From Bradyrhizobium cosmicum (lineage in GTDB: Bacteria > Pseudomonadota > Alphaproteobacteria > Rhizobiales > Xanthobacteraceae), in the NCBI RefSeq assembly GCF_007290395.2, contig NZ_CP041656.2, positions 4,340,001-4,404,000 of the forward strand: DNA of 64,000 nt, written 5' to 3'. The notes below the pieces were generated by a model, which saw only the letters and a program-made list of their open reading frames with translations, was not told the DNA's origin and ran no database searches. The position numbers and the translations under genes were made by a program. Of the stretch, positions 20,002 through 60,372 are shown piece after piece (position 1 is the stretch's first letter; each line of letters opens with the position of its first letter).

Positions 20002-20087
20002 GGCGGCAGCGTTTGGCAGGGAATATGGGCCGGATCAAGCCTCATTTGGTGATTGCGGAGCCGTCCGGCCAGCCCCATATCGGCTTT

Positions 20088-20140
20088 GGGAAGGACGGCC
20101 TTCCCGCTCGTCAGCATATCAGCCGCGGGGACGACCCTGC
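20088..20140 (+). promoter_or_regulatory. Guanidine-II (mini-ykkC) riboswitch
   Basis: Two consecutive hairpins, each capped by an ACGR tetraloop, stand immediately before the exporter gene. The first is GGGAAGG-ACGG-CCTTCCC (20088-20105). The second is GCGGGG-ACGA-CCCTGC (20125-20140, one G-U pair). The linker is 19 bases. This is the defining structure of the guanidine-II class. The ribosome-binding site GAAGGGAGGG begins four bases after the second hairpin, which fits translational control: guanidinium bound to the loops should free the site. The downstream gene is the expected target class. Confidence 0.9.
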
Positions 20141-48335: not shown

Positions 48336-49217
48336 CTATTTCAGAGGAAGAAAGACGTCCGCGACCGTCTCGTGCTCAGGCACCTCCGGGAAGAAGCTCA
48401 GCCGCTGGCAATAGATCGGGAAGTCGCGCACTTCCTCGCCGCTGGCCGGAAGCCAATCGCGATAGAGATAGAGCGCGGCGGGCTCCAGATTGTCGGTGTA
48501 GCCGACCACGCGCAGCACGGCGCAACGTCCGCCGGGGATCCCGCCGGCCTTGATCGCCTCGCTGAATCCCGCGACCGGCTGGTCGGTGCCGACACAGAGG
48601 TCCACGCTGTAGTCAGCCGGCGAGGCAGGACGCCGCTCGGACCGCCAGACATTGTAGGTTGGACTTGTGCTGGGGTGCAGGTTCGCCGCCTTGCGGCAGG
48701 CAATGAACCTCTGGATGGTGGCGCGAAGTGCTTCGGGGCTCCCCCGATGCTCCATGATCGCCACCTTCGTGGGTGGCACATCGCGGATCGTCACGTCGTT
48801 GGTGGAAAAAATCGTCTGCATCAGCTTGCTCCTCGCGTTGTCGAGAGGCCCGAAGGCCGCAAGCCACGGCTCCCACACAGGCGATTTCCGGAACGACGAC
48901 GGCGACTGCCCGAGCCGTTGCCGAAAGGCGCGGGCGAAGGCATCGGGCGCGTCGTAGCCGGCATCCATCGCGATGTCGGTAACATCGAGGGCGTCAGCGT
49001 AGGCCAGCTGATGCGACGCGCGCTTCAGACGGGCGAGCTGGACGTAGCGATGCACCGACAGCCCGAAGGTCGCCGTGAACTGCCGGTGGAAATGGAATTT
49101 CGAGAAGGCGGCGACAGCACTCAACATGTCGAGGTCCAGATCGGCGTCGAGGTGACGGTCGATATGGTCCAGCACCCGCCGCATCCGGTCCTGATAATTT
49201 TGCAGCGCCGCCTTCAT
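48336..49217 (-). CDS. AraC family regulator with GyrI-like ligand domain
   Basis: This 293-residue protein has an N-terminal AraC double helix-turn-helix (MRRVLDHIDRHLDADLDLDML, AFSKFHFHRQFTATFGLSVHRY, DIAMDAGYDAPDAFARAFRQRLGQSP) and a C-terminal GyrI-like/Rob-type ligand-binding domain (VAIMEHRGSPEALRATIQRF). This is the Rob-like architecture, with the DNA-binding part first. Such regulators often respond to drugs or small hydrophobic compounds. The gene stands alone and its target is not evident. Confidence 0.9.
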   Translation of the reverse strand: MKAALQNYQDRMRRVLDHIDRHLDADLDLDMLSAVAAFSKFHFHRQFTATFGLSVHRYVQLARLKRASHQLAYADALDVTDIAMDAGYDAPDAFARAFRQRLGQSPSSFRKSPVWEPWLAAFGPLDNARSKLMQTIFSTNDVTIRDVPPTKVAIMEHRGSPEALRATIQRFIACRKAANLHPSTSPTYNVWRSERRPASPADYSVDLCVGTDQPVAGFSEAIKAGGIPGGRCAVLRVVGYTDNLEPAALYLYRDWLPASGEEVRDFPIYCQRLSFFPEVPEHETVADVFLPLK

Positions 49218-49322
49218 CGTCCCAGCTCCGTGGCTGAATACAGTTAGCCGCGGACGGCCATGATGCGCTCGACCGATCTTGCGGTTTGTCAGGGTGCTCC
49301 CCGTGGCATCCGTTGACCTCCG

Positions 49323-49424
49323 CTGTCGTCGCCCGGCTCGACCGGGCGACCCTGTACGCCGCGGCCTCTCGGCTCGTTCACGATCGTCTCTGAATACTGG
49401 ACCGCCCGATCAAGTCGGGCGATG
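49323..49424. repeat. Dispersed palindromic repeat, GTCGTCGCCCGG type
   Basis: Arms GTCGTCGCCCGGCTCGACCG and CGCCCGATCAAGTCGGGCGATGAC face each other across about 60 bases containing CTGAATACTGGACCGCCCG. The element is another multicopy Bradyrhizobium-type intergenic repeat, located between the AraC gene and the serine hydrolase gene. Confidence 0.65.
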
Positions 49425-49466
49425 ACACCGAGTATGTTGCACCAAGAGACGATTCAGCAGTCGGCC

Positions 49467-50729
49467 CTACCCGCCCGCCATCAATTGCTTCGCCAGCGCC
49501 ATGTAGGCCGGCAGCGTCACGGGATCGTTGGCGGCGTTGCCCGCCACAGGATGCGAGGCGTAGCGCGCGATCACCATCTCGGCTTTGGGATCAATGTAGA
49601 TGCCCTGGCCGTAGACGCCGCGCGCCATGTAGGCGCCGTGGGCGTTGTGCGTAACCCACCATTGGTTGCGGTAGGACGCGCCCGGCAGCGTGGTGTAGCC
49701 GGCCGGCTTGAATTTTTCGGGGTCGCCGCCGCGCGCGATATCCTCGACGACGGTTTCAGGCACGATCTGGCGGCCGTTGAAGCGGCCATGATTGCGCATG
49801 GTCTCGCCGAAGCGGGCGAGATCGCGCAACGTGGTGGAGAGACCGCCGCCGCCGCTTTCGGTGCCGATGCGGTCGACGTGATAATGCGCGTCCTCCTCCG
49901 CGCCCATCGGCTGCCAGATCCGCTCCGAGAGGAAGTCGGACAGCGTCATGCCGCTGGCACGCCTGATGACCCAGGCCAGCACATCGGTGTTGACGGTCTT
50001 GTAGGCGAAGGCCTTGCCGTGCTCGCCCTGCTTCGTCTGCGCGACGAGGAAATCGAAAATGGTGGTCGGGCCGTCATAGTCAGGCGGGATCGGCGCCATG
50101 CCGTTGGCGCGCCGCAGTCCCCAGACGTGTGAATTCTTGTCGGTGTAGACCTCGGTGTATGCGAGCCCCGTGGTCATATCCATGACCTCGTGCACACGCG
50201 CATCGCCGAACGCGCTGGCCTTCAGCTCCGGCACATAGTCCGTGACGGGCGCCTGCGGATCGATCCTGCCCTCGCTGACCAGAATGCCGCCCAGCACACC
50301 GGTGAACGACTTCGTCACCGACATCCCGATATGCGGCTTGTGCGGCTTCAGCGCGCCGAAATAGCGCTCATAGATCAGCCTGCCCCGATGCAGCACGGCA
50401 ATGCCGTCGGTGTAGGTCTCCTCCAGCATCTTTGCGAAGGTCATGGGCCGGCCGTCCATCGTAACCGAAGTGACCGCGCCGATGTCGTGGTCCTCGCGCG
50501 GCAGCGGCGACGCCGGCCCTGCCCCGCGCCAGACGTTCACCGTGGGCACCAGCTGGCGGATGTTGCTCCAGGCCCAGCGCAGTTCGGGGAAGCTGCGGAA
50601 CGAGCCGTCCTGGAAGGTGATGAGGCGGTCCGGGGACGGCGGGAAGCCGCGCATCCAGCCGAGCGTTTCGGGATCGGTTTCTTTGGCGGTGGATGGGCTG
50701 GCGGCGGGTGTGGCGGTAGACATGGACAA
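49467..50729 (-). CDS. Serine hydrolase, NylB-like (6-aminohexanoate-dimer hydrolase) family
   Basis: This 420-residue protein has the catalytic S-x-x-K in MSVTKSFTGVLGG and a Y-x-x-x-N-like element in FAYKTVNTDVLAW. The overall form (WRGAGPASPLPREDHDIGAV near the N terminus, GRLIYERYFG before the Ser) resembles NylB-type hydrolases. The preceding region is hydrophilic without a signal peptide, so it is cytosolic. Activity on amide or ester substrates is likely; nylon-oligomer hydrolysis is only one property found in this family. It is followed downstream by the repeat at 49323. Confidence 0.82.
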   Translation of the reverse strand: MSMSTATPAASPSTAKETDPETLGWMRGFPPSPDRLITFQDGSFRSFPELRWAWSNIRQLVPTVNVWRGAGPASPLPREDHDIGAVTSVTMDGRPMTFAKMLEETYTDGIAVLHRGRLIYERYFGALKPHKPHIGMSVTKSFTGVLGGILVSEGRIDPQAPVTDYVPELKASAFGDARVHEVMDMTTGLAYTEVYTDKNSHVWGLRRANGMAPIPPDYDGPTTIFDFLVAQTKQGEHGKAFAYKTVNTDVLAWVIRRASGMTLSDFLSERIWQPMGAEEDAHYHVDRIGTESGGGGLSTTLRDLARFGETMRNHGRFNGRQIVPETVVEDIARGGDPEKFKPAGYTTLPGASYRNQWWVTHNAHGAYMARGVYGQGIYIDPKAEMVIARYASHPVAGNAANDPVTLPAYMALAKQLMAGG

Positions 50730-51076
50730 TGGCTCCAGACGTGCGGCGCGGATGTCGTAGCATCAGATGAAATGGCGGACATCCAGCGTTTGTGCCGGGC
50801 ACCTAAGCGCCGGACACCGGCGGTGCAACGGTTGAGCACCGGCGCTCGAAGCGAAATCGCGACGCTGGATTAGTATCCCGCTGTTTGCAAAAGTCGGTGA
50901 CCTTCGCACCCATCAAGCTCGCGAAAGCTGAACAAGAGCGGCGCTCAGGTGCACGCACGCGGCCGCGTCTGGGGCCAGCTGATCTTCCAAGATTTGTTTT
51001 GGAAGGAGCCGTAATCGATCTACGGCCGGGTGATGGAGGCCGAAAGCTGGTCGCGCGCGCCGTTCGAAGAGAGCTC
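50730..51076. other. Intergenic stretch with a possible decayed gene on the plus strand
   Basis: No intact gene was found. On the plus strand, in the frame ending at TAG 51078-51080, the sequence reads like a protein (GRVWGQLIFQDLFWKEP, TAA at 51012-51014, then SIYGRVMEAESWSRAPFEES), with a TAA inside it, which suggests a small pseudogene remnant. A hairpin (CTTCCAA/TTGGAAG) lies near 50985-51006. The function of the possible ancestor is not recognised. Confidence 0.25.
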
Positions 51077-51166
51077 GTAGGGCGGATTTGCGAAGCGTAA
51101 TCCGCCATGTTGTGCACGACTCGACGGAGAGATGGCGGATTGCGCCTTACGGCTAATCCGCCCTAC
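51077..51166. repeat. Dispersed palindromic repeat, GTAGGGCGGAT type
   Basis: GTAGGGCGGAT at one end and ATCCGCCCTAC at the other, with AATCCGCCAT/ATGGCGGATT inside, make a long perfect-ended hairpin. It belongs to the family of multicopy intergenic elements of Bradyrhizobium and marks the left side of the region that holds the protease-nuclease gene. Confidence 0.75.
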
Positions 51167-51215
51167 GAGACTGCGACCGGTAAATTCCAGTTCTTCAGCC
51201 TGCAGTGCAGCCGGA

Positions 51216-51599
51216 TCACTTCTTAGTCGCGCCCTCGGATGGCAGCGCTACCGACCCGCCGATTTTTGTCGAGACCACGTAGACGTCGACGCCGCTCATC
51301 GAGCATTCCTCGCTTGATGCCTGATTTTTCGTGATGACCTCGATCGTCTTGCCATCCCTGGTGTGAAACGTGATGTCGTAAACCTGCTGGTGGAGGTCTT
51401 TGCCGATCTTTTCGGATGCGAGACGAACGGCCTTGGTCTGCGCCTCGATCACTGACGGGATATCAATCAGGCCGGCGTTCTTGAGGTGCACGAGGGCCAT
51501 GTTGGTGGGCCAACTCGCGCAGTCCGGAGACTTCGCGAGAGCCACCGCAGCCGGCATGGCAAATATTGCGGCCACCACCACTTTCAACGCGGAGCGCAT
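51216..51599 (-). CDS. Secreted protein of unknown function, 127 residues
   Basis: From ATG 51599 the product has a signal peptide (MRSALKVVVAAIFAMPAAVA, cleaved after about ALA) and a mature domain of about 100 residues: DCASWPTNMALVHLKNAGLI, QVYDITFHTRDGKTIEVITK and CSMSGVDVYVVSTKIGGSVA. Two cysteines could form a disulfide. The start overlaps the stop of an upstream small ORF as TGATG. The family is not recognised; the layout is typical of small periplasmic proteins in variable regions. Confidence 0.7.
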   Translation of the reverse strand: MRSALKVVVAAIFAMPAAVALAKSPDCASWPTNMALVHLKNAGLIDIPSVIEAQTKAVRLASEKIGKDLHQQVYDITFHTRDGKTIEVITKNQASSEECSMSGVDVYVVSTKIGGSVALPSEGATKK

Positions 51600-51739
51600 C
51601 AATGCAAGTCCTTGATGGTGTGGTCGCCACTTTTCCGGATCTGCGTGCCCATCTTGATGGGCAGGACGGCAGCGACCATGCCGTCGCGGTCGCCGCGCTT
51701 GCAAAGCTTCTCGCCAGGCTTGAGCTTCTGAAGTCCCAT
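51599..51739 (-). CDS. Possible small lysine-rich protein coupled to the secreted protein
   Basis: A 46-residue frame (MGLQKLKPGEKLCKRGDRDG, ending SGDHTIKDLH) ends in TGA that shares bases with the next ATG (TGATG). No good Shine-Dalgarno stands before the ATG at 51739; the frame is open further upstream to 51829 and includes a TTG preceded by GGAGAAGG. The sequence looks protein-like. It may be a small real gene or a fragment. Confidence 0.35.
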   Translation of the reverse strand: MGLQKLKPGEKLCKRGDRDGMVAAVLPIKMGTQIRKSGDHTIKDLH

Positions 51740-51788
51740 ATCGGTCAACAAGGCCTTCTCCGTTCGGTTCGCCGCCAGAAACCATAGG

Positions 51789-51953
51789 TCATGATGGTAC
51801 CTCCTTTGCGCCGGCTTCGGCCAGCGCACGCATGAAATTCGGCGTCGACCAGGTCGCTACGCCGGTCCTCGCGAAGTCGCGGTCCGTCGTCCAGACGACA
51901 GCACGGCATGCCTGGACAGGAACACGGATTGTAGTGTTATAAGTCAGTTGCAT
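51789..51953 (-). pseudogene. Possible PIN-domain C-terminal remnant (54 codons)
   Basis: Reading the minus strand from ATG 51953 gives 54 residues, whose end VVWTTDRDFARTGVATWSTP resembles the C-terminal strand-helix of VapC-like PIN nucleases (…TTDRDFAR…G…W..P). The first two thirds of a PIN domain are absent. The TGA overlaps a following ATG (ATGA) that has a strong AAGGAGGT upstream but opens only a 14-codon frame. It is probably a truncated toxin gene at the edge of an inserted region. The match is by eye and needs a profile search. Confidence 0.35.
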
Positions 51954-52010
51954 TATCTTGATTTACTCGTCCTGCCTGCATTTTGGTTTGGTGAATTTCG
52001 GAGGGTGACG

Positions 52011-53984
52011 GTGATAGACGAAGAAGCCGACGCAAAAGAACCTCGCAAAGATATCGTAGCAACGCAGTCGAGCGCTCTTTCGCGCGAGGCTGAAAAGATG
52101 GTCGGCGAAACATCCACTTACGCTACGCCCGCCATGCGGCAAGAACGACGCGCCCGCGCCTCGGCGGACAAGCGGTTTGCCCTTCGTAAAACGCTCGTCG
52201 AACCCGACCGCAGCGACCCAAACGGGTTCGAGCGCATCATCGGCAACAGCGACCTGATGTCGATTAACTTCCTAGATCGCGGCAGGCGGACGGCGGCGGC
52301 GGTTTGCCGAATCAAAGTGCCGAGCGACGGCGGCGCCTGGTACGGCACGGGCTTTCTTGTCGGGCCTCGCCTCCTGCTCACCAACCATCATGTGCTCGGC
52401 AATGCCGACGAAGCAAGCCAGGCCGAAGCTGAATTCGGTTATGAGCACGACTTCGACGGCGTATTGCAGGAGCCGGTCCGCTTCAATTTGCGTCCGCACG
52501 AAATTTTCTATACCAACGCCGAACTCGATTTCACATTCGTCGCCGTCACACCGCTCTCGGACGAATGCGTGCCGATCGCCCGTTACGGAATCCTGCCGCT
52601 CATTCCCCTCTCCGGCAAGGCCGTCGACGGGGAATGGGTTACGATAATCCAGCATCCCGGCAGCGAACCAAAGCAAATCGCGATCCGCGCCAGTCAGGTC
52701 ATCGGGCTCGACCCCAGGTATGTGCCAGGGGTCGATCTAGATCATTTTATTCACTACTCGACCGACACCGAACCGGGCTCATCTGGAGCGCCGGTTCTTA
52801 ACGACCAATGGCAAGTGCTGGCCCTGCACCACAAAGCGGTGCCGGCGCCAGAAAATCCGGAAAGCGAAAGCAAAGAACCGACATGGATCGCCAACGAAGG
52901 TGTGCGGATCAGTGCGATATTCAAGCACCTGAAAGGCGAAAGGTTCGCGAAACCGCAGGCCGGGCTGGTGCTTGACCGTCTCGACCTGTCGCTCGGGTTT
53001 CCGGCACTGGGTAACAGCGCGACACCTGGAGAATCGTTGCTTGAGGCCGATCGCCGCCCGCTCGACCCGGCGAGATGGGCGCACGTCTCCGGCTATGACG
53101 CGTCGTTTCTGAGTGAGACGATTGCGCTGCCGAAAATCTACGCGCCCGCGCGCGCAAAAAATCTGGTCGCGCCACTGCTGGACGGTTCAGGTTACGAACT
53201 CGTCTATCATCACTTCACGTCCGTGATCCGCGCGGATCGTAAATTTCCCTTGTTCACCGCGGTGAACATCGACGGCGACAGACTGGTTCATCCTGGAAAA
53301 CGCAAAGACACGTGGCGGCGCGACGCTCGCATCGCCGATGAATTTCAGCCCGACGGCGACTTTTACGAAAAGGCCAAAGGAACAGACCCGGTGCAGTTCA
53401 GCCGCGGCCATCAGGTACGGTTGCTTGACCCTTGCTGGAGCACTTTGACGAAGAAAGCAAATGCGCTGGCGGAGTCTCAACTGGCGTCCGAGGATACGTT
53501 TCATTATACGAACGCGGCGCCGCAGGTTCAGGGCTACAACGACATCGACTGGGGCGATCTAGAAGACTACCTGCTCGATAAGGCGCAGACATCGCACAAG
53601 CGCCTCACCGTCTTTACCGGACCGATCTATCGTGATGACGACCCGATGTACGGCAAGGCGCGCAAAGGCGGCCCATGGAAGATTCCATTGTCGTTCTGGA
53701 AAGTCGCCGTGCTGCAGAAGACACCCACAAAGGTCGCGGCTGCCGCCTTCATCATTGGCCAAACGCAATACGTTCAAGCGCTGTTTGAGGCCAAGGTTTT
53801 CTCCGGGCTGAAGCCTTACACCCCCAACGAACTCCACACCATGCACATCCAGACGACGGTTAAAACCATCGAGACGGAAACCGGTCTCGATTTTTCGGCG
53901 GTACGTCCCTTCGATTCGCAAGGCGGCCTCGAATCGACCCGGCAAACCCGATGGCTCAATGATAGCAGTGACGTAATCATTTGA
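52011..53984 (+). CDS. Trypsin-like protease fused to a DNA/RNA non-specific (NUC) endonuclease
   Basis: This 657-residue protein starts at GTG 52011 with GGAGG six bases upstream; GTG 52005 and TTG 51948 are alternatives. Residues about 1 to 75 are charged and probably disordered. About 90 to 290 is a trypsin/V8-like serine protease (WYGTGFLVG, His127 in LLTNHHVL, Asp173 in AELDFTFVAV, Ser258 in TEPGSSGAPV). About 390 to 640 is a NUC endonuclease with SRGH in place of DRGH (His467), TNAAPQ (Asn501), YNDIDW and a FTGPIYRDDDP loop. The two domains are joined by a linker of about 100 residues. There is no signal peptide. Codons are less GC-rich than in neighbours. Confidence 0.9.
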   Translation: MIDEEADAKEPRKDIVATQSSALSREAEKMVGETSTYATPAMRQERRARASADKRFALRKTLVEPDRSDPNGFERIIGNSDLMSINFLDRGRRTAAAVCRIKVPSDGGAWYGTGFLVGPRLLLTNHHVLGNADEASQAEAEFGYEHDFDGVLQEPVRFNLRPHEIFYTNAELDFTFVAVTPLSDECVPIARYGILPLIPLSGKAVDGEWVTIIQHPGSEPKQIAIRASQVIGLDPRYVPGVDLDHFIHYSTDTEPGSSGAPVLNDQWQVLALHHKAVPAPENPESESKEPTWIANEGVRISAIFKHLKGERFAKPQAGLVLDRLDLSLGFPALGNSATPGESLLEADRRPLDPARWAHVSGYDASFLSETIALPKIYAPARAKNLVAPLLDGSGYELVYHHFTSVIRADRKFPLFTAVNIDGDRLVHPGKRKDTWRRDARIADEFQPDGDFYEKAKGTDPVQFSRGHQVRLLDPCWSTLTKKANALAESQLASEDTFHYTNAAPQVQGYNDIDWGDLEDYLLDKAQTSHKRLTVFTGPIYRDDDPMYGKARKGGPWKIPLSFWKVAVLQKTPTKVAAAAFIIGQTQYVQALFEAKVFSGLKPYTPNELHTMHIQTTVKTIETETGLDFSAVRPFDSQGGLESTRQTRWLNDSSDVII

Positions 53985-54035
53985 CCGGATCAAACTCGCG
54001 ACGGAAATCAATCGGCTGCGTCGCGGCGCGGCCTC

Positions 54036-55634
54036 TCACTCCCACTCAATCGTTCCGGGCGGCTTGCTCGTCACGTCGTACACCACCCGGTTCACGCCCT
54101 TCACCTCGTTGATGATGCGCGTCGCGGTCTCACCCAAAAACTTCATGTCGAACTGGTAGAAGTCCGCGGTCATGCCGTCGGTGGAGGTGACGGCGCGGAG
54201 GCCTACGACGAAGTCATAGGTGCGGCCGTCGCCCATGACGCCGACCGTCTTCACCGGGAGCAGCACCGCAAAGGCCTGCCAGATGTCGTCGTAGAGGCCG
54301 TGCTTGCGGATCTGGTCGATGTAGACGGCGTCGGCCTTGCGCAGGATGTCGAGCTTGTCCTTTGTGATCTCGCCGGGGCAGCGGATGGCAAGGCCCGGCC
54401 CGGGGAACGGGTGGCGGCCGACGAAGATTTCGGGCAGGCCGAGCTCGCGGCCGAGCTTGCGCACTTCGTCCTTGAACAGCTCGCGCAAGGGCTCGACGAG
54501 CTTCATGTTCATACGTTCAGGGAGACCGCCGACATTGTGGTGCGACTTGATCGTGACCGAAGGGCCGCCGGTGAAGGAGACGCTCTCGATCACGTCGGGA
54601 TAGAGCGTGCCTTGCGCGAGGAAGTCGGCGCCGCCGATCTTCTTGGCCTCCGCCTCGAACACCTCGATGAAGAGACGGCCGATGGTCTTGCGCTTGGTTT
54701 CGGGGTCGGTGACGCCTTCGAGCTCGCCGAGGAATTGCTTGGACGCATCCACGTGCACGAGCGGGATGTTGTAGTGGTGGCGGAACAGGTCGACGACGGT
54801 CTTGGCTTCGTCGAGGCGCAGCATGCCGTGGTCGACGAACACGCAGGTGAGCTGGTCGCCGATGGCTTCGTGGATCAGCACGGCCGCGACCGCTGAATCG
54901 ACGCCACCGGAGAGGCCGCAGAGCACCTTGCCCTTGCCGACCTGGGCGCGGATCTTGGCGATCTCCTCCTCGCGGAAGGCACGCATGGTCCAGTCGCCGG
55001 AGAGGCCGGCGATCTTGCGGACGAAATTGCGGATCAGCTTGGCGCCGTCCGGCGTGTGCACCACTTCGGGGTGGAACATCAGGCCGTAATATTTGCGCGT
55101 CTCGTCCTGGATGATCGCGAACGGCGCGTTCGGCGAGGTGCCGGCCACCGAGAAGCCCGGCGGCATCTTGGTGATGCGGTCGCCATGGCTCATCCAGACC
55201 TGGTTCTTGCCGCCCGGCGACCAGACGTCCTCGAACAGCTTGCTCGGCGCCTTGACCTCGACATCGGCACGGCCGAACTCGCGGTGGTGGCCGCCCTCGA
55301 CGGTGCCGCCCAGTTGCTCCGCCATGGTCATCTGGCCGTAGCAGATGCCGAGCACCGGCACGCCGGAGGCGAAGATCAATTGGGGCGCCCGCGGGGAGCC
55401 TGCCTCATGCACCGACTCCGGCCCGCCGGAGAGGATCACCGCTTTCGGCTTCATCTCCTTAAAGGCCTCTTCGGCCTTGTTGAACGGGACGATCTCGCAA
55501 TAGACGCCGTCCTCGCGCACGCGACGCGCAATCAGCTGCGTCACCTGGCTGCCGAAGTCGACGATGAGAATCTTGTCATGCGCCGAGGCCACGGAGGGCG
55601 TCGACGCGGAGCGGTCGTGCTGTGCTGCTGTCAT
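54036..55634 (-). CDS. guaA: GMP synthase (glutamine-hydrolysing)
   Basis: GuaA converts XMP to GMP using ATP and glutamine. The 532-residue product has an N-terminal class I glutaminase domain (Cys in [16 protein letters not shown] motif in WMSHGDRI) and a C-terminal ATP-pyrophosphatase domain ([14 protein letters not shown]). The typical end PPGTIEWE is present. ATG at 55634 gives the natural start; the longer in-frame start at 55712 would add 26 unrelated residues. It lies directly after the protease-nuclease gene in convergent orientation (51-base gap). Confidence 0.95.
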
Positions 55635-55719
55635 GGCAAGCAGATACGCGACGTGCGACCGGCCCGCAACCGCGCGCGGCACGCACCCACATTCTTCTTT
55701 GGGCATGGACAAACGTAAA

Positions 55720-55740
55720 TAGGTAAGTATTATTGACCTA
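55720..55740. promoter_or_regulatory. AT-rich inverted repeat between guaA and the NTF2-like gene
   Basis: TAGGT-N11-ACCTA, quasi-palindromic at 15 of 21 positions, lies in the divergent intergenic region about 86 bases upstream of guaA and 44 bases upstream of the NTF2-like gene. It is a possible operator; no regulator gene is adjacent. Confidence 0.3.
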
Positions 55741-55783
55741 ATTTGCTCCGGTTCACACAGGAGCCCAATCAGGGAGAACGTTC

Positions 55784-56155
55784 ATGTCACAACACCATCA
55801 GCCATCAACGCTTGCCGCGCTCAGCCACACCTGGGTTGAGGCCTGGAATGCGCGCGATCTTGAGCGCGTGCTCGCGCTTTACGCCGAGGACGCCGTGATG
55901 ACGTCCGACCGCATCCCCGTGATGGGGTTCGATGCCAGCGGCACCGTGCGCGGCAAGGACGCGTTGCGGGCCTATTGGGGCAAGGCGCTCGGGCTGATCC
56001 CGAACCTGCATTTCACGGTGATCGACGTGTTCGTCAGTCCGGACAGCGCGGTCGTGTTCTACGAGAACGAGCGGGGCAAGCGGATCTGCGAATATCTGCG
56101 GGTGAACGAGGCCGGGCTGATCGTGCAGGGCTCGGCGAACCAATTGCCGCACTGA
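55784..56155 (+). CDS. NTF2-like (SnoaL-type) family protein
   Basis: This 123-residue cone-shaped NTF2-fold protein shows LSHTWVEAWNARDLERVLALYAEDAVMTSD and GKDALRAYWGKALGLIPNLHF, with a FYENERGKRICEYLRVNEAG end. Such proteins bind small hydrophobic ligands or act as hydrolases and isomerases; no catalytic residues can be assigned. The gene is between guaA and an HxlR gene and may be controlled by the inverted repeat upstream. Confidence 0.8.
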   Translation: MSQHHQPSTLAALSHTWVEAWNARDLERVLALYAEDAVMTSDRIPVMGFDASGTVRGKDALRAYWGKALGLIPNLHFTVIDVFVSPDSAVVFYENERGKRICEYLRVNEAGLIVQGSANQLPH

Positions 56156-56188
56156 CGTCGCGATCCAGTTGAGGAGGCCCGCGCGCAT

Positions 56189-56641
56189 TCAGCGCTTGCG
56201 CGCGCCGACCTTTCTCACCCTGGTGTCGGACCATGTCAGCGGCCGGCCCGCCCGCGACGGAAGCACGAGCTTGCCGACCCGCTGGCCCGCCTCGTCCACC
56301 AGATCGGAATGCACTTCGCCTCGGGCATACAGATTGGCTTCACCCCACTGGCGCAGGCTGACGACGACCGGAAACAGGTCGCGCCCCTTCTTCGTCAGCG
56401 CATATTCCTGATAGGCACTGCCGTCGGAGGCCGGCACCGGCTCGAGCACGCCAAGCTCCACCAGCCTGTACAGGCGCGCGCTGAGCATGCCCTTGGCAAT
56501 GCCCAGATTCTTCTGGAAGTCGCCGAACCGGCGCAGGCCATCGAAGGCATCGCGCACGATCAGCAGCGACCACACGTCCCCGATGGCGTCGAGTGCGCGC
56601 GCCACCGGGCAGCTCGCGTCGGCAAAACCGGTCCGCTTCAT
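56189..56641 (-). CDS. HxlR family transcriptional regulator
   Basis: This 150-residue protein has the HxlR winged-helix signature: CPVARALDAIGDVWSLLIVRDAFDGLRRF near residues 11 to 40, the NLGIAKGMLSARLYRLVELGVLE recognition region, and the YALTKKGRDLFPV wing. The cysteine at about residue 11 may sense electrophiles or oxidants. It is divergent from an MFS gene; operators of the GGTCTTA...TAAGACC type lie between them. Confidence 0.92.
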   Translation of the reverse strand: MKRTGFADASCPVARALDAIGDVWSLLIVRDAFDGLRRFGDFQKNLGIAKGMLSARLYRLVELGVLEPVPASDGSAYQEYALTKKGRDLFPVVVSLRQWGEANLYARGEVHSDLVDEAGQRVGKLVLPSRAGRPLTWSDTRVRKVGARKR

Positions 56642-56660
56642 TCGCAGCCCCCTTCAAGCT

Positions 56661-56716
56661 GGTCCCAAAATAAGACTAGACAGCGCATGATGCAACTGGT
56701 CTTATTTTAAGACCAG
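56661..56716. promoter_or_regulatory. Operator pair between hxlR-type gene and MFS gene
   Basis: The right-hand site (56696-56716) is a perfect 21-bp palindrome: CTGGTCTTA, centre TTT, TAAGACCAG. A second, weaker copy GGTCCCAAAATAAGAC lies at 56661-56676, 37 bases upstream. Both lie between the divergent starts, so the HxlR protein probably controls itself and the transporter. Confidence 0.8.
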
Positions 56717-56738
56717 ATCGAATAGGCCGGAGACGACG

Positions 56739-57995
56739 ATGACGGGGAACGACACCACGACAGCGGGCCTGGAAGCCGGTGATATGACCGGGCGCGGGCT
56801 CTCTGGCGCAATGGCGCTGCTGTTCGCGCTGACCTGCGGCCTGAGCGTCGCCAACATCTACTTCGCGCAGCCCCTGCTTGACGCCATGGCGCACGATCTC
56901 GACATCGCGCCCGCTGCGATCGGCATGGTGGTGACGTTCACGCAGATCGGCTACGCGTTCGGCCTGATCCTGATCGTGCCGCTCGGCGATCTCCGGGATC
57001 GCCGCAGCCTGATCGTCGGCCAGACGGTGCTCTCAGCCATCGGGCTCGTGGTCATCGGCACGGCGTCGCACGCCGCGGTCCTGCTTGCGGGGATGGCGCT
57101 GGTCGGCGTGCTCGCCGTCGTCGTCCAGGTCCTCGTTGCGTTTGCGGCGACGCTGGCGACGCCGGACGGCCGCGGCCGCGCCATCGGCACCGTCACCAGC
57201 GGCGTTGTCGCGGGCATCCTGCTGGCGCGGTTCGCCTCCGGCGCGCTGGCCGATATCGGCGGCTGGCGCATGGTCTATTTGGTCTCGGCCGGCCTCATGC
57301 TCGCCCTCGCCGCCCTGCTCCTGCGCGTGCTGCCGTCCGACCGGCCCGCCGCGATGGCCGGAGCGTCCTATCCGTCGTTGCTGCGCTCGACGGCCTCGCT
57401 GTTTGCCGAGGAGCCGCTGCTGCGAGAGCGCGCATTGTTTGCGTTTCTGATCTTCGCTGATCTTAATGTATTCTGGACCTCGATCGTGCTCCCGCTCTCG
57501 GCGCCTCCCCTCGCTCTGTCGCACACCACGATCGGGCTGCTCGGCATCGCCGGATTCGCCGGAGCACTTGCGGCGCGAAACGCCGGACGCCTCGCTGATC
57601 TCGGATGGGGTCAGCGCACCACCGGCCTCTCGCTGATGCTGATGCTGGCTGCCTGGGCTCCGATCGCCTGCCTGCAAACCTCGCTGTGGCTCGTGGTCGC
57701 AGGCGTCATCATGCTGGATTTCGGGCTTCAGGCCGTGCATGTGACCAGCCAGAGCCTGATCGTCGCCGCGCGCCCGGATTCGGCCAGCCGACTGATCGGG
57801 GGCTACATGGTGTTCTACTCGGTCGGAAGCGCTGTCGGCGCGATCACCTCGACGATGGTGTACGCGATGGCCGGCTGGACCGGCGTGTGCATGCTCGGCG
57901 CCGGGATCAGCGCCGCCGCTCTGCTGGCCTGGGTCATGATTGCAAGCAGGATGCAGGTGCCCCACCCCTGCGCATTGACGCAACAGCAAAGATGA
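56739..57995 (+). CDS. MFS transporter
   Basis: This 418-residue protein has twelve hydrophobic segments and the MFS motif A in the first half (VPLGDLRDRRSLIVG). The pattern GLSVANIYFAQPLLDAMAHDL near the N terminus is typical of the drug-proton antiporter DHA/YnfM-like group. It follows GGAG and is divergent from the HxlR regulator. Efflux of a small toxic compound sensed by HxlR is a reasonable inference; the substrate is not known. Confidence 0.88.
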   Translation: MTGNDTTTAGLEAGDMTGRGLSGAMALLFALTCGLSVANIYFAQPLLDAMAHDLDIAPAAIGMVVTFTQIGYAFGLILIVPLGDLRDRRSLIVGQTVLSAIGLVVIGTASHAAVLLAGMALVGVLAVVVQVLVAFAATLATPDGRGRAIGTVTSGVVAGILLARFASGALADIGGWRMVYLVSAGLMLALAALLLRVLPSDRPAAMAGASYPSLLRSTASLFAEEPLLRERALFAFLIFADLNVFWTSIVLPLSAPPLALSHTTIGLLGIAGFAGALAARNAGRLADLGWGQRTTGLSLMLMLAAWAPIACLQTSLWLVVAGVIMLDFGLQAVHVTSQSLIVAARPDSASRLIGGYMVFYSVGSAVGAITSTMVYAMAGWTGVCMLGAGISAAALLAWVMIASRMQVPHPCALTQQQR

Positions 57996-58055
57996 GGACT
58001 GCGGCGCTCGCATCCGATAACAAGGGCTCCGCCGGCATAAAGACAGGATTCCACC

Positions 58056-58388
58056 ATGAAACTCCCCACCTCCCCCTTCACCGTCACCGACTGGAGCAAA
58101 GTCGAGCCGACCACGCATGCCGGCGAGACCGGCCAGGCGCTGTGGCGCACGCTCAACACCGGCGATCTCCGGGTGCGGATGGTGGAGTATTCGCCGGGCT
58201 ATCTCGCCGACCATTGGTGCGACCGTGGCCACGTGATCTTCGTCGTGAAGGGCGAGCTCGACAGCGAGCTGCGCGACGGGCGCAAATTCAAGCTCACCGC
58301 GGGCATGAGCTACCAAGTCTCCGATTTCGGCGACCCCGCGCACCGGTCGTCCACGGCCACCGGCGCCACGCTTTTCATCGTGGACTGA
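58056..58388 (+). CDS. DHCW-motif cupin fold protein
   Basis: This 110-residue small cupin carries the signature DHWCDRGHVIFVVKGELDSELRDG, the DHCW-type motif, in the first barrel strands. It belongs to a family of uncharacterised single-domain cupins with a probable metal site (the two His and Cys of the motif, plus His in DPAHRS). It lies downstream of the MFS gene on the same strand (60-base gap) and may be in the same operon. The function is unknown. Confidence 0.85.
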   Translation: MKLPTSPFTVTDWSKVEPTTHAGETGQALWRTLNTGDLRVRMVEYSPGYLADHWCDRGHVIFVVKGELDSELRDGRKFKLTAGMSYQVSDFGDPAHRSSTATGATLFIVD

Positions 58389-58460
58389 GGCACGCCGGGT
58401 CGGTTCAATTGCACCGCAAAATAGCAAAGTCACGCGACATGCCGGGGCGCGGGTGGTGCC

Positions 58461-58488
58461 TTGAAGTAGCCCAAAATCTCGCTATAAT
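58461..58488 (+). promoter_or_regulatory. Sigma-70 type promoter of cspA
   Basis: TTGAAG (58461-58466), a 16-base spacer and a perfect TATAAT (58483-58488) make a strong housekeeping promoter upstream of the cold-shock gene. The message would carry a leader of about 150 bases before the ATG at 58649, a length usual for cold-regulated csp transcripts. Confidence 0.7.
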
Positions 58489-58648
58489 GTGATCATCGAT
58501 ACTTGGCCGAACGACTGGGCCGCTTCGCTTCGTTGCAGACGGGCGCGCACGCTTCAGATGACTTCTCCAAACATCGACTGAACAGGATCATGGGCGCAGC
58601 GACGCGTTCCGGTCCGCGTGCGTACCATCTCTAACAAAGGAAATTCCC

Positions 58649-58858
58649 ATGGCTATGGGCACCGTGAAGTGGTTCAACACCCAAAAGGGTTATGGTTTCA
58701 TCCAGCCGGACGACGGCCAGAAGGACGTGTTCGTCCACATCAGCGCTGTCGAACGCGCCGGCCTGTCGACCCTCAACGAGGGCCAGAAGGTCTCGTTCGA
58801 CATCGTCGCCGACCGCCGCAGCGGCAAGTCGTCGGCTGATAATCTCCGCGTCGGCTAA
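58649..58858 (+). CDS. cspA: Cold-shock protein, CspA family
   Basis: This 69-residue single cold-shock domain has both RNA-binding motifs intact: [10 protein letters not shown] (RNP1) and [10 protein letters not shown] (RNP2). It acts as an RNA chaperone, binding single-stranded nucleic acid. A promoter with perfect TATAAT lies 160 bases upstream, leaving a long leader, and a strong rho-independent terminator follows the gene. The Shine-Dalgarno AAAGGAAA precedes the ATG. Bradyrhizobium carries several such genes; this one has a complete transcription unit of its own. Confidence 0.95.
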
Positions 58859-58911
58859 CGCCCGCGCACCGTTCTGAGCTCGGACGTACCGGCAGAGCGC
58901 AACTATTGGAA

Positions 58912-58951
58912 AGCCCCGCGACCGGGATCCGGTTTGCGGGGTTTTTGTTTT
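58912..58951 (+). terminator. Rho-independent terminator of cspA
   Basis: A CCCCGC/GCGGGG stem with an inner ACCGG/CCGGT stem is followed by TTTTTGTTTT. It begins 53 bases after the cspA stop, and is the clearest intrinsic terminator in the window. Confidence 0.85.
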
Positions 58952-58957
58952 GGCCCT

Positions 58958-59058
58958 GTCATTCCGGGGCTCGCGAAGCGAGAGCCCGGCATCCATCAGG
59001 CCGCAGGGACTGCCCAGCGATGGATTCCGGGCTCGCCCTGCGGGCGCCCCGGAATGAC
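58958..59058. repeat. Dispersed palindromic repeat, GTCATTCCGGGGC type
   Basis: GTCATTCCGGGGC and GCCCCGGAATGAC form perfect 13-bp ends of a 101-bp element with inner GCGAAGCGAGAGCCCGG and GGCATCCAT sequences. It is a typical multicopy Bradyrhizobium intergenic element, placed between the cspA terminator and rsmB. Confidence 0.8.
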
Positions 59059-59070
59059 GAGGGCGCAAGA

Positions 59071-60372
59071 TCAGGCCGTCTTCTTCAGCACCGACACGAA
59101 AAACCCGTCCGTCCCGGTCCGCCGCGGCGTCATCAGCCAGCCCTCCGGCGACTGCAGCGCGGCGTCCGCGAACGCTTCCGCCTTGTCCCAGAGCACGCTG
59201 GCGGTCTGCTCGGGCGGAACGACCGCAAACCCGGGATGCCGCGCGACGAATGCCCTCACCTGCTCGCCATTCTCTTTAGATAGCACCGAGCAGGTGATGT
59301 AGGCGATGCGGCCGCCGGCCTTGACCAGCGGCACGGCGCGATCCAGCACCGCGGCCTGGTCGCGCAGGCGGATCTCCAGCGCGCCCGGCCGCATGCGCCA
59401 TTTGGCGTCGGGGTTGCGGCGCCAGGTTCCGGTTCCGGTGCAGGGCGCGTCGATGACGACGAGGTCGGCGGTGCCGCTGATGTCGGCCAGCGGATCGACC
59501 TCACCCTTGGGCGTGCGGATATCGGCGTTGTGGACGCCGGCGCGCGACAGCCGTTCATGGATCGGCGCAAGCTGGCGCTTGTCGCTATCGGTCGCGATCA
59601 AGCGGCCCTTGCCCTGCATCATCGCGGCCAGCGCCAGCGTCTTGCCGCCGGCGCCCGCACAGAGATCGATCACCTGCTCGCCGGGCTTTGCCGCGGTGAG
59701 CTGGGCCGCAAGCTGCGATCCTTCATCCTGCACTTCAACGGCGCCCTTGATGAAATCCTCTTCCGACTGGATGCCGGGATTGCGCGCATCGGCCGAAAGC
59801 TCGATGCGCAGGCCGTTTGCCGACCAGGGCGTCGGTTTCGCATGAAGATGAGCAAGCCCGCGCAGCACCTTGTCCCGATTGGACTTTAGCGTGTTGACGC
59901 GCAGGTCGAGCGGCGCCCGGCTCGCCATCGCGGCGGCCTCGGCAACGCGGTCCTCGCCGAACGCTTTCGCCAGATGGGAATCGAGCCATTCGGGATAGTC
60001 GCCGGCGATGGCGGCCGGAGCATCCTTCAGGGAACGCGAGGCGAGCGCCGCCTGCTCGGCGTCCGTCAACGGCGCCGGCGCAAACCGGCTGCCGTCGAAC
60101 AAGGCGGCCATGGTGGCCGTATCCATGTTGCGCTCGAGGCGGAGCATGCCGATCAGCCGCGCCCGCGCGGTATCGGCATCCATCAGCCAGGCGCTCGAGG
60201 CATAGCGGCGCAGCACGTCCCAGACGAGGCCGGCGATCGCGGCACGGTCGCCCGAGCCGGCAAAGCGGTGCGCGGTGCCCCACTCCTTCAGCGCCTTGGC
60301 CGCGGGCACGCGGTCTTTCTCGATGGTGTCGATCAGTTCGATGGCTGCGGACAGCCGGGCAGCGGGAGTCAT
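59071..60372 (-). CDS. rsmB: RsmB/NOP family rRNA cytosine-C5 methyltransferase
   Basis: This 433-residue protein has an N-terminal NusB-like helical domain (AIELIDTIEKDRVPAAKALKEW) and a SAM-dependent methyltransferase domain with the two catalytic cysteines of the RsmB/NOP type: DAPCTGTGTWRRNPD and YITCSVLSKENG. The SAM-binding loop reads DLCAGAGGKTLALA. RsmB methylates C967 of 16S rRNA; a closely related substrate is possible. The gene is followed (on its strand) by the repeat at 58958. Confidence 0.9.
   Translation of the reverse strand: MTPAARLSAAIELIDTIEKDRVPAAKALKEWGTAHRFAGSGDRAAIAGLVWDVLRRYASSAWLMDADTARARLIGMLRLERNMDTATMAALFDGSRFAPAPLTDAEQAALASRSLKDAPAAIAGDYPEWLDSHLAKAFGEDRVAEAAAMASRAPLDLRVNTLKSNRDKVLRGLAHLHAKPTPWSANGLRIELSADARNPGIQSEEDFIKGAVEVQDEGSQLAAQLTAAKPGEQVIDLCAGAGGKTLALAAMMQGKGRLIATDSDKRQLAPIHERLSRAGVHNADIRTPKGEVDPLADISGTADLVVIDAPCTGTGTWRRNPDAKWRMRPGALEIRLRDQAAVLDRAVPLVKAGGRIAYITCSVLSKENGEQVRAFVARHPGFAVVPPEQTASVLWDKAEAFADAALQSPEGWLMTPRRTGTDGFFVSVLKKTA

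Follow-up and report, generated by a model that had tools for sequence, protein, structure and literature searches.

The window analysed here, a stretch of 64,000 nucleotides of Bradyrhizobium cosmicum (contig NZ_CP041656.2, positions 4,340,001 to 4,404,000), carries a gene whose product joins a trypsin-like protease to a NUC-type endonuclease, referred to below as the fusion gene and the fusion protein. The reading that we prefer, and to which we give an even chance, is that the gene is a horizontally acquired member of the NucA-trypsin conflict family, standing alone at its locus, and that its product would be a latent cytosolic executioner whose protease comes into play first, and release of the nuclease by the protein itself is plausible. 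The architecture has been described before: it was noted in 2008, when a Tryp-Endonuclease_NS protein in Fusobacterium was listed in a survey (PMC2605481), and was predicted by Kaur et al. in 2020 to form the NucA-trypsin conflict system ('System 3'), fused forms included, in which the nuclease is deployed by proteolysis (PMC7159879), a prediction repeated in a 2021 sequel (PMC8195603). What is new is this member, together with a documented branch of the family that is unlinked, mobile and widely distributed, and the placement of the fusion gene in the slot at the 3' end of guaA, which in other members of the genus is occupied by, among other things, integrases and defence-like genes. The gene and the parts of its product are as follows.

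52011..53984, plus strand: fusion gene, trypsin-like protease / Endonuclease_NS, 657 aa (open reading frame (ORF) list and Pfam)
52000..52004, plus strand: likely ribosome-binding site GGAGG of the GTG start at 52011 (sequence; start of the closest annotated homologues)
52068..52298, plus strand: N-terminal module, residues 20-96, mostly helical, with conserved R59, E74, R75, D81, L82 and G91 (secondary structure, conservation)
52344..52826, plus strand: Trypsin_2 domain, residues 112-272, with triad H127, D173, S258 and S1-pocket residues T253 and H273 (Pfam, conservation, alignment to glutamyl endopeptidases)
52995..53042, plus strand: low-confidence linker between the domains, residues 329-344, predicted local distance difference test (pLDDT) <50 (structure model)
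53181..53897, plus strand: Endonuclease_NS (NucA/EndoG-like) domain, residues 391-629, with R410, S464-R-G-H467, N501, N510 and E518 (Pfam, conservation, fold)

The fusion proposed in the first-pass annotation of this stretch was recovered by Pfam, with Trypsin_2 (PF13365, E 1.9e-22) and Endonuclease_NS (PF01223, E 6.9e-38) in the same chain, and the five active-site residues that it named are intact. Among 88 full-length relatives, H127, D173 and S258 are each present in all 88, H467 is likewise present in 88, and N501 in 87. The SRGH variant, also pointed out there, is real, position 464 being D in 75 sequences, S in 12 and Q in 1. Judged from the alignment, both active sites are retained together in almost all of these relatives. 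Because 74 of the 88 sequences came from a scan seeded partly on the motifs LL[LIM]TN[HNW]HV and [WF][IE]ANEG[VIT]R, the conservation of T124, N125, H127, V128 and N295-R299 is partly built in, while that of D173, S258 and the nuclease residues is independent of the seed motifs. The GTG start lies within one residue of the starts in the two closest annotated plasmid homologues. The nuclease part gave a fold match of NucA/EndoG type in the structure model, a fold common to EndoG, Serratia nuclease and Anabaena NucA, and we take its active-site residues to be those of the same three enzymes. To our knowledge, the solved bacterial V8/Esp proteases and Serratia/NucA nucleases are secreted single-domain enzymes. 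Unlike the secreted Serratia/NucA-type nuclease, the fusion protein holds both domains in a single chain without a secretion-like start; in agreement with the earlier claim that a signal peptide is lacking, none of the 88 relatives has a secretion-like N-terminus in a crude test of hydropathy over residues 1-45 (not SignalP).

The protease shares catalytic and S1-pocket residues with the V8/Esp glutamyl endopeptidases. T253 (87 of the 88 relatives) and H273 (all 88; one residue beyond the Pfam Trypsin_2 range) align with the T and H of Esp, a V8-type glutamyl endopeptidase, and presumably match the glutamyl endopeptidase positions Thr/Ser 190 and His 213 in chymotrypsin numbering. The S1 pocket appears glutamyl-endopeptidase-like, and cleavage after Glu is predicted. 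The best fold match of the protease part is the serine protease domain of human FAM111A, a likeness in fold only; it spans model residues 75-332 and includes helix 86-96, which in the predicted structure ends the N-terminal module and precedes the protease barrel. The model of a Bacillota homologue also has a low-confidence linker (residues 314-322), and a fixed interdomain arrangement found no support, the predicted template modelling scores (pTM) of the window protein and the Bacillota homologue being 0.52 and 0.55. The protease part was only weakly matched in PADLOC (best RT-Protease_XI, E 4e-07), and the fusion protein had no NCBIfam match over the cut-off.

A scan of the genome collection found at least 527 stretches that encode a relative, of which the best 80 were kept. 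The tree of 55 rows carries labels of ten phyla, archaea included (some rows are metagenome bins), whereas the NucA-trypsin system was reported mostly from alphaproteobacteria, with 45 organisms in Table 1 of the 2020 paper (PMC7159879). Relatives were matched in 118 of 72,556 plasmid records and in none of 50,697 phage records; three pattern matches on viral contigs included no relative, these patterns reaching close relatives only. Within Bradyrhizobium, 50 of 146 genomes match the profile, counting the B. cosmicum genome itself and partial matches, and one subfamily (575-599 bits) occurs in 26 of the 146. The window type is separate from this subfamily, which sits at a fixed locus; its nearest relatives, at 75-80%, are from Beijerinckiaceae, Mesorhizobium, Tardiphaga, Ensifer and rhizobial plasmids. 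The Bradyrhizobium label requires three changes on the tree, and a further Bradyrhizobium record (L051, unlabelled in that test) falls in yet another clade, where some long branches are unsure. By this grouping with relatives from other genera, the window gene is placed as horizontally acquired.

The protease family was also seen in other settings in the genus. The fixed-locus subfamily mentioned above is a second trypsin-NUC type (L160-L169, L179), and in many Bradyrhizobium genomes its single locus has LysR and transporter genes nearby. The 1157 aa fetched of another Bradyrhizobium gene (L174, 11-3484, running on into L173) contain PLD-like domains and two stretches of Trypsin_2, so that here the protease family is joined to a further hydrolase/nuclease fold. 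An EAD11-trypsin protein is encoded at L176, 6950-8002 (minus strand), in a genome (G158) that also has the fusion gene of the chromosomal locus.

The fusion gene is compositionally foreign. The AT-richer patch noticed earlier corresponds to the three 1-kb windows spanning 51001 to 54000, which have the lowest guanine-plus-cytosine (GC) content of the 64, and GC at third codon positions is 0.68 in the fusion gene vs 0.81-0.89 in four nearby genes. The repeats noticed with the patch are present as one 18-nt inverted pair at 51074-51169 but are minor. The surroundings of the gene are as follows.

51216..51785, minus strand: flank gene without Pfam match, which adjoins guaA where the insert is absent (neighbour scan, genome comparison)
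51801..54037, no strand: inserted segment, approximate borders (comparison with two Bradyrhizobium genomes)
51808..51897, minus strand: remnant of the C-terminus of a presumed VapC/PIN-like gene (about 30 codons match; intact copies in other genomes)
54036..55712, minus strand: guaA (GMP synthase), whose 3' end borders the insert (neighbour scan; present in 145 of 146 genomes of the genus)

Between the end of the fusion gene and the 3' end of guaA lie 51 bases, a proximity that the first-pass annotation did not mention. In two congeners (L122, L125) the matched flank and the guaA match are 23 and 61 bases apart, the flank match of L122 ending at window position 51601, and this spacing defines an insert of about 2.2 kb. 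The insert holds the remnant and the fusion gene, and no integrase ORF was found in it. The remnant matches the C-terminal part of a gene of roughly 160 aa that is unbroken in other genomes, and thus the likely broken toxin gene of the first-pass annotation is broken indeed; its VapC/PIN-like label, and with it the word toxin, we take from a motif without a family search. In previous work, the 3' end of guaA was described as an integration site for integrative elements in other bacteria (PMC7775301). In some congeners, part of the guaA 3' end is duplicated a few kb off, as integrated elements would be expected to show. Elsewhere in the window, a Guanidine-II riboswitch was found at 20087-20139 (plus strand) with a score exceeding the Rfam gathering score.

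A scan of 59 guaA slots with 108 ORFs, a non-random sample of a single site type without a control site, recovered a varied content. Among the matches listed for the first 25 of 81 Pfam families are HNH_2 (14), TIR (3), GmrSD (2), AAA_21 (2), CHAT (1) and nSTAND1 (1), together with integrase arm domain (3), phage integrase (2), AlpA (2) and CagX (1); the first 25 of 179 PADLOC families include HNH (14), mad3 (3) and PtuA/GajA-like ATPases (2). Ten slot genes scanned singly include FRG/PDC-S15, DpnII-MboI/nucleotidyltransferase, HNH, TIR-nSTAND1 and AAA_21 proteins, and the remaining five lacked a PADLOC match as well as any TIR or STAND domain. Across the loci viewed (window 54036; L120-L139, L180-L219) the slot is highly variable, holding integrase/AlpA, TIR-nSTAND1, GmrSD, CHAT, FRG, HNH and OLD-like ATPase genes as well as metabolic genes. 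Seen without a control site, the Bradyrhizobium guaA 3' slot looks like a defence hotspot.

According to the 2020 study, EAD1, STAND and further peptidase genes occur in a subset of NucA-trypsin operons and do not define the system, in which NucA and trypsin-like domains like those of the window protein are fused in some cases (PMC7159879). Unlike some of those operons, the window gene is not accompanied by EAD1, STAND or a second peptidase gene, the adjacent features being guaA, the small gene without Pfam match and the PIN-like remnant. A search for EAD1 in the same genome gave no match, and neither did any of its controls. The survey of homologues for conserved neighbours that had been suggested at first pass turned up no partner common to the family, and a conserved operon partner was therefore rejected (ORFs >=80 codons compared). 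The only wide recurring set is rhizobial, comprising a 974-aa protein without Pfam match, an exo_endo_phos protein and a polysaccharide lyase; it recurs in part or whole at L028, L029, L031, L032, L037 and L047-L049, even beside a relative only 38% identical, and single loci of this set also hold an S1/P1 nuclease or a CHAT or C25 peptidase. A papain-family gene lies 3' of the fusion gene in three loci, and in three loci the gene preceding it is one that we label, by assumption, metalloprotease-like.

Two recently described systems are close to the fusion protein in logic or in architecture. Tuck et al. (2025) described MBL pro-nucleases paired with trypsin-like proteases in Hachiman, AVAST, Lamassu and DRT systems and showed pro-nuclease activation by protease (PMC12799240). 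The logic is the same, a trypsin-like protease controlling an intracellular non-specific nuclease, but the MBL pro-nuclease differs in fold and is in every case encoded separately, and the Hachiman protease cuts after Ile, whereas the window protein is predicted to cleave after Glu and has neither a sensor nor an ATPase fused to it. Neither an MBL-fold nuclease gene nor a protease fused to a defence enzyme was found among the ten ORFs neighbouring the fusion gene. The other system is Caulobacter LypABC, a CARD-NLR-like system tested in 2026, in which LypC is a trypsin-endonuclease protein (PMC13236601). Its trypsin-like domain, flexible linker and NucA-type endonuclease are in the same order as in the window protein. 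As reported there, S296A in LypC abolishes host lysis while H471A and N505A do not, and the LypC of C. endophyticus is without the nuclease domain (PMC13236601). In the fetched genomes LypABC was located, and in the L245 LypC the residues S, H and N fall on the published positions once a start offset of 33 residues is allowed for. The nuclease domains of the window protein and LypC are 35% identical over 301 aa (E 1e-35), and their protease domains align over 37 residues by BLASTP (E 0.026).

No LypA or LypB gene (NLR or CARD-protease) was found among the ten ORFs neighbouring the window gene, 48336 to 60372, and among the loci fetched up to that comparison LypA/LypB matches were confined to Caulobacteraceae. 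The genome carrying the window gave no LypA match in a search without positive control, and no LypB match with a query that finds 5 of 12 genomes, including the congeners G122 and G148, but misses G246. Since G246 holds a 1025-aa protein that clusters with LypB by BLASTP and yet was missed, diverged LypB forms can escape this search. In G122 (C13:419063-429910) and G148 (C1:8177657-8188283), a LypB-like match lies about 8 kb from the endonuclease-domain match of a 767-aa frame, and CARD-NLR-like loci may therefore exist in Bradyrhizobium. No paper testing a stand-alone NucA-trypsin form was found in the open-licence literature.

In the preferred reading, the protein would be held latent, because a non-specific nuclease active in the cytosol would be lethal to the host and the neighbour survey showed no conserved gene for an inhibitor; copies would be gathered by a signal of infection or damage, perhaps through the conserved N-terminal helix; the protease may then be activated in a dimer-dependent manner, by analogy with FAM111A, whose protease is activated by dimerisation (PMC10920703); the activated protease would cut after Glu in target proteins and possibly also in the linker of its own chain, which contains Glu; the cell would then die or stop growing, and the nuclease, once freed or uncovered, would likely degrade nucleic acids as a second step. 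The protease-activated conflict nuclease proposed at first pass is partly supported: it gains from the published prediction, the analogous activated pro-nuclease of another fold, the horizontal acquisition and the slot context, and loses from the dispensable nuclease residues of LypC and the sparse defence neighbours. The near-perfect conservation of the nuclease residues among the aligned members of this branch is the strongest argument for the nuclease as killer.

Several observations weigh against this reading. The strongest argument against the nuclease as killer is the LypC result: nuclease mutants still lyse, and thus nuclease release may not be the killing step. FAM111A cleaves itself without need of a dimer and has a chymotrypsin-like P1 preference for Phe (PMC10920703), so the fold implies neither dimer-triggered self-cutting nor Glu specificity. 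The flexible interdomain linker has no conserved Glu column (the best reaches 36 of 88), though Glu is frequent there, and no gating insertion with conserved cleavage residues was established in the nuclease; the model has low-confidence stretches at 329-344, in the linker, and at 589-612. A small inhibitor gene could be missed because ORFs <80 codons were ignored in the neighbour test. Among 124 immediate neighbours of 34 diverse relatives, 28 PADLOC families were matched, none in more than two members; these were compared without a control set, and so neither defence enrichment nor its absence is established. LysR (4), glyoxalase (3), periplasmic-binding (2) and further metabolic genes occur in the guaA slots as well (among the first 25 of 81 families), and the 14 slot HNH genes form one cluster and may be a single inherited insertion. 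In the genus, a single chromosomal locus accounts for all 11 subfamily members with surroundings examined, plus one broken copy (L175), together 12 of 20 stretches. Uniform vertical inheritance without defence association had been named at first pass as refuting its proposal; the fixed locus of this one subfamily goes part of the way towards that.

The same LypC phenotypes, and the nuclease-free LypC of C. endophyticus, favour an explanation in which the protease is the working part and cuts a separate lytic or regulatory target, the nuclease being structural, regulatory or auxiliary only. The homology of the window nuclease domain to that of LypC also speaks for it, but the two protease domains are barely alignable, neither LypA nor LypB is encoded beside the window gene, and 87-88 of 88 relatives retain the catalytic residues of the nuclease, for which a purely structural domain would have no use; we consider it rather unlikely. 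Likewise, the fold likeness to FAM111A, which aids replication past DNA-protein crosslinks (PMC10920703), and the fixed chromosomal locus of one Bradyrhizobium subfamily could point to a repair-type enzyme without immune role, with a FAM111A-like protease removing protein and an EndoG-like domain cutting DNA at protein-DNA obstacles. The patchy presence in the genus, the cross-genus transfer, the carriage on plasmids and the integration slot are unlike a repair gene, and a non-specific nuclease is a poor repair tool; we consider this reading improbable. The fusion gene could also be the leftover of a decayed island with selection gone: only the 2.2-kb insert is left, with a broken PIN-like gene adjacent and no integrase ORF inside, and fusion copies elsewhere are broken, L031 being split by a transposase gene and L175 lying in two frames. 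Against such decay, which we regard as quite improbable, the window gene keeps an intact reading frame with its start and ribosome site, and none of its catalytic residues is lost.

The executioner reading also has a bolder form, in which the stand-alone branch would be a one-polypeptide death machine: a dimer-switched, Glu-specific, FAM111A-like protease would cut its own linker or gate and turn on the tethered EndoG-like nuclease; it would have no NLR, CARD or other partner, and plasmids and islands would have carried it through bacteria and archaea. We regard this form as unlikely.

The closest tested relative, LypC, gave a surprising answer: the protease is needed and the nuclease is not. 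The branch described here, which is widespread, retains both active sites and shows no NLR partner linked to it, is therefore a clean system for testing protease-nuclease coupling. It could show what triggers the protease without a fused sensor, and it bears on whether V8/FAM111A-type proteases belong to the ancient components of immune death pathways. For Bradyrhizobium, the guaA 3' slot is a useful place to seek new defence genes.
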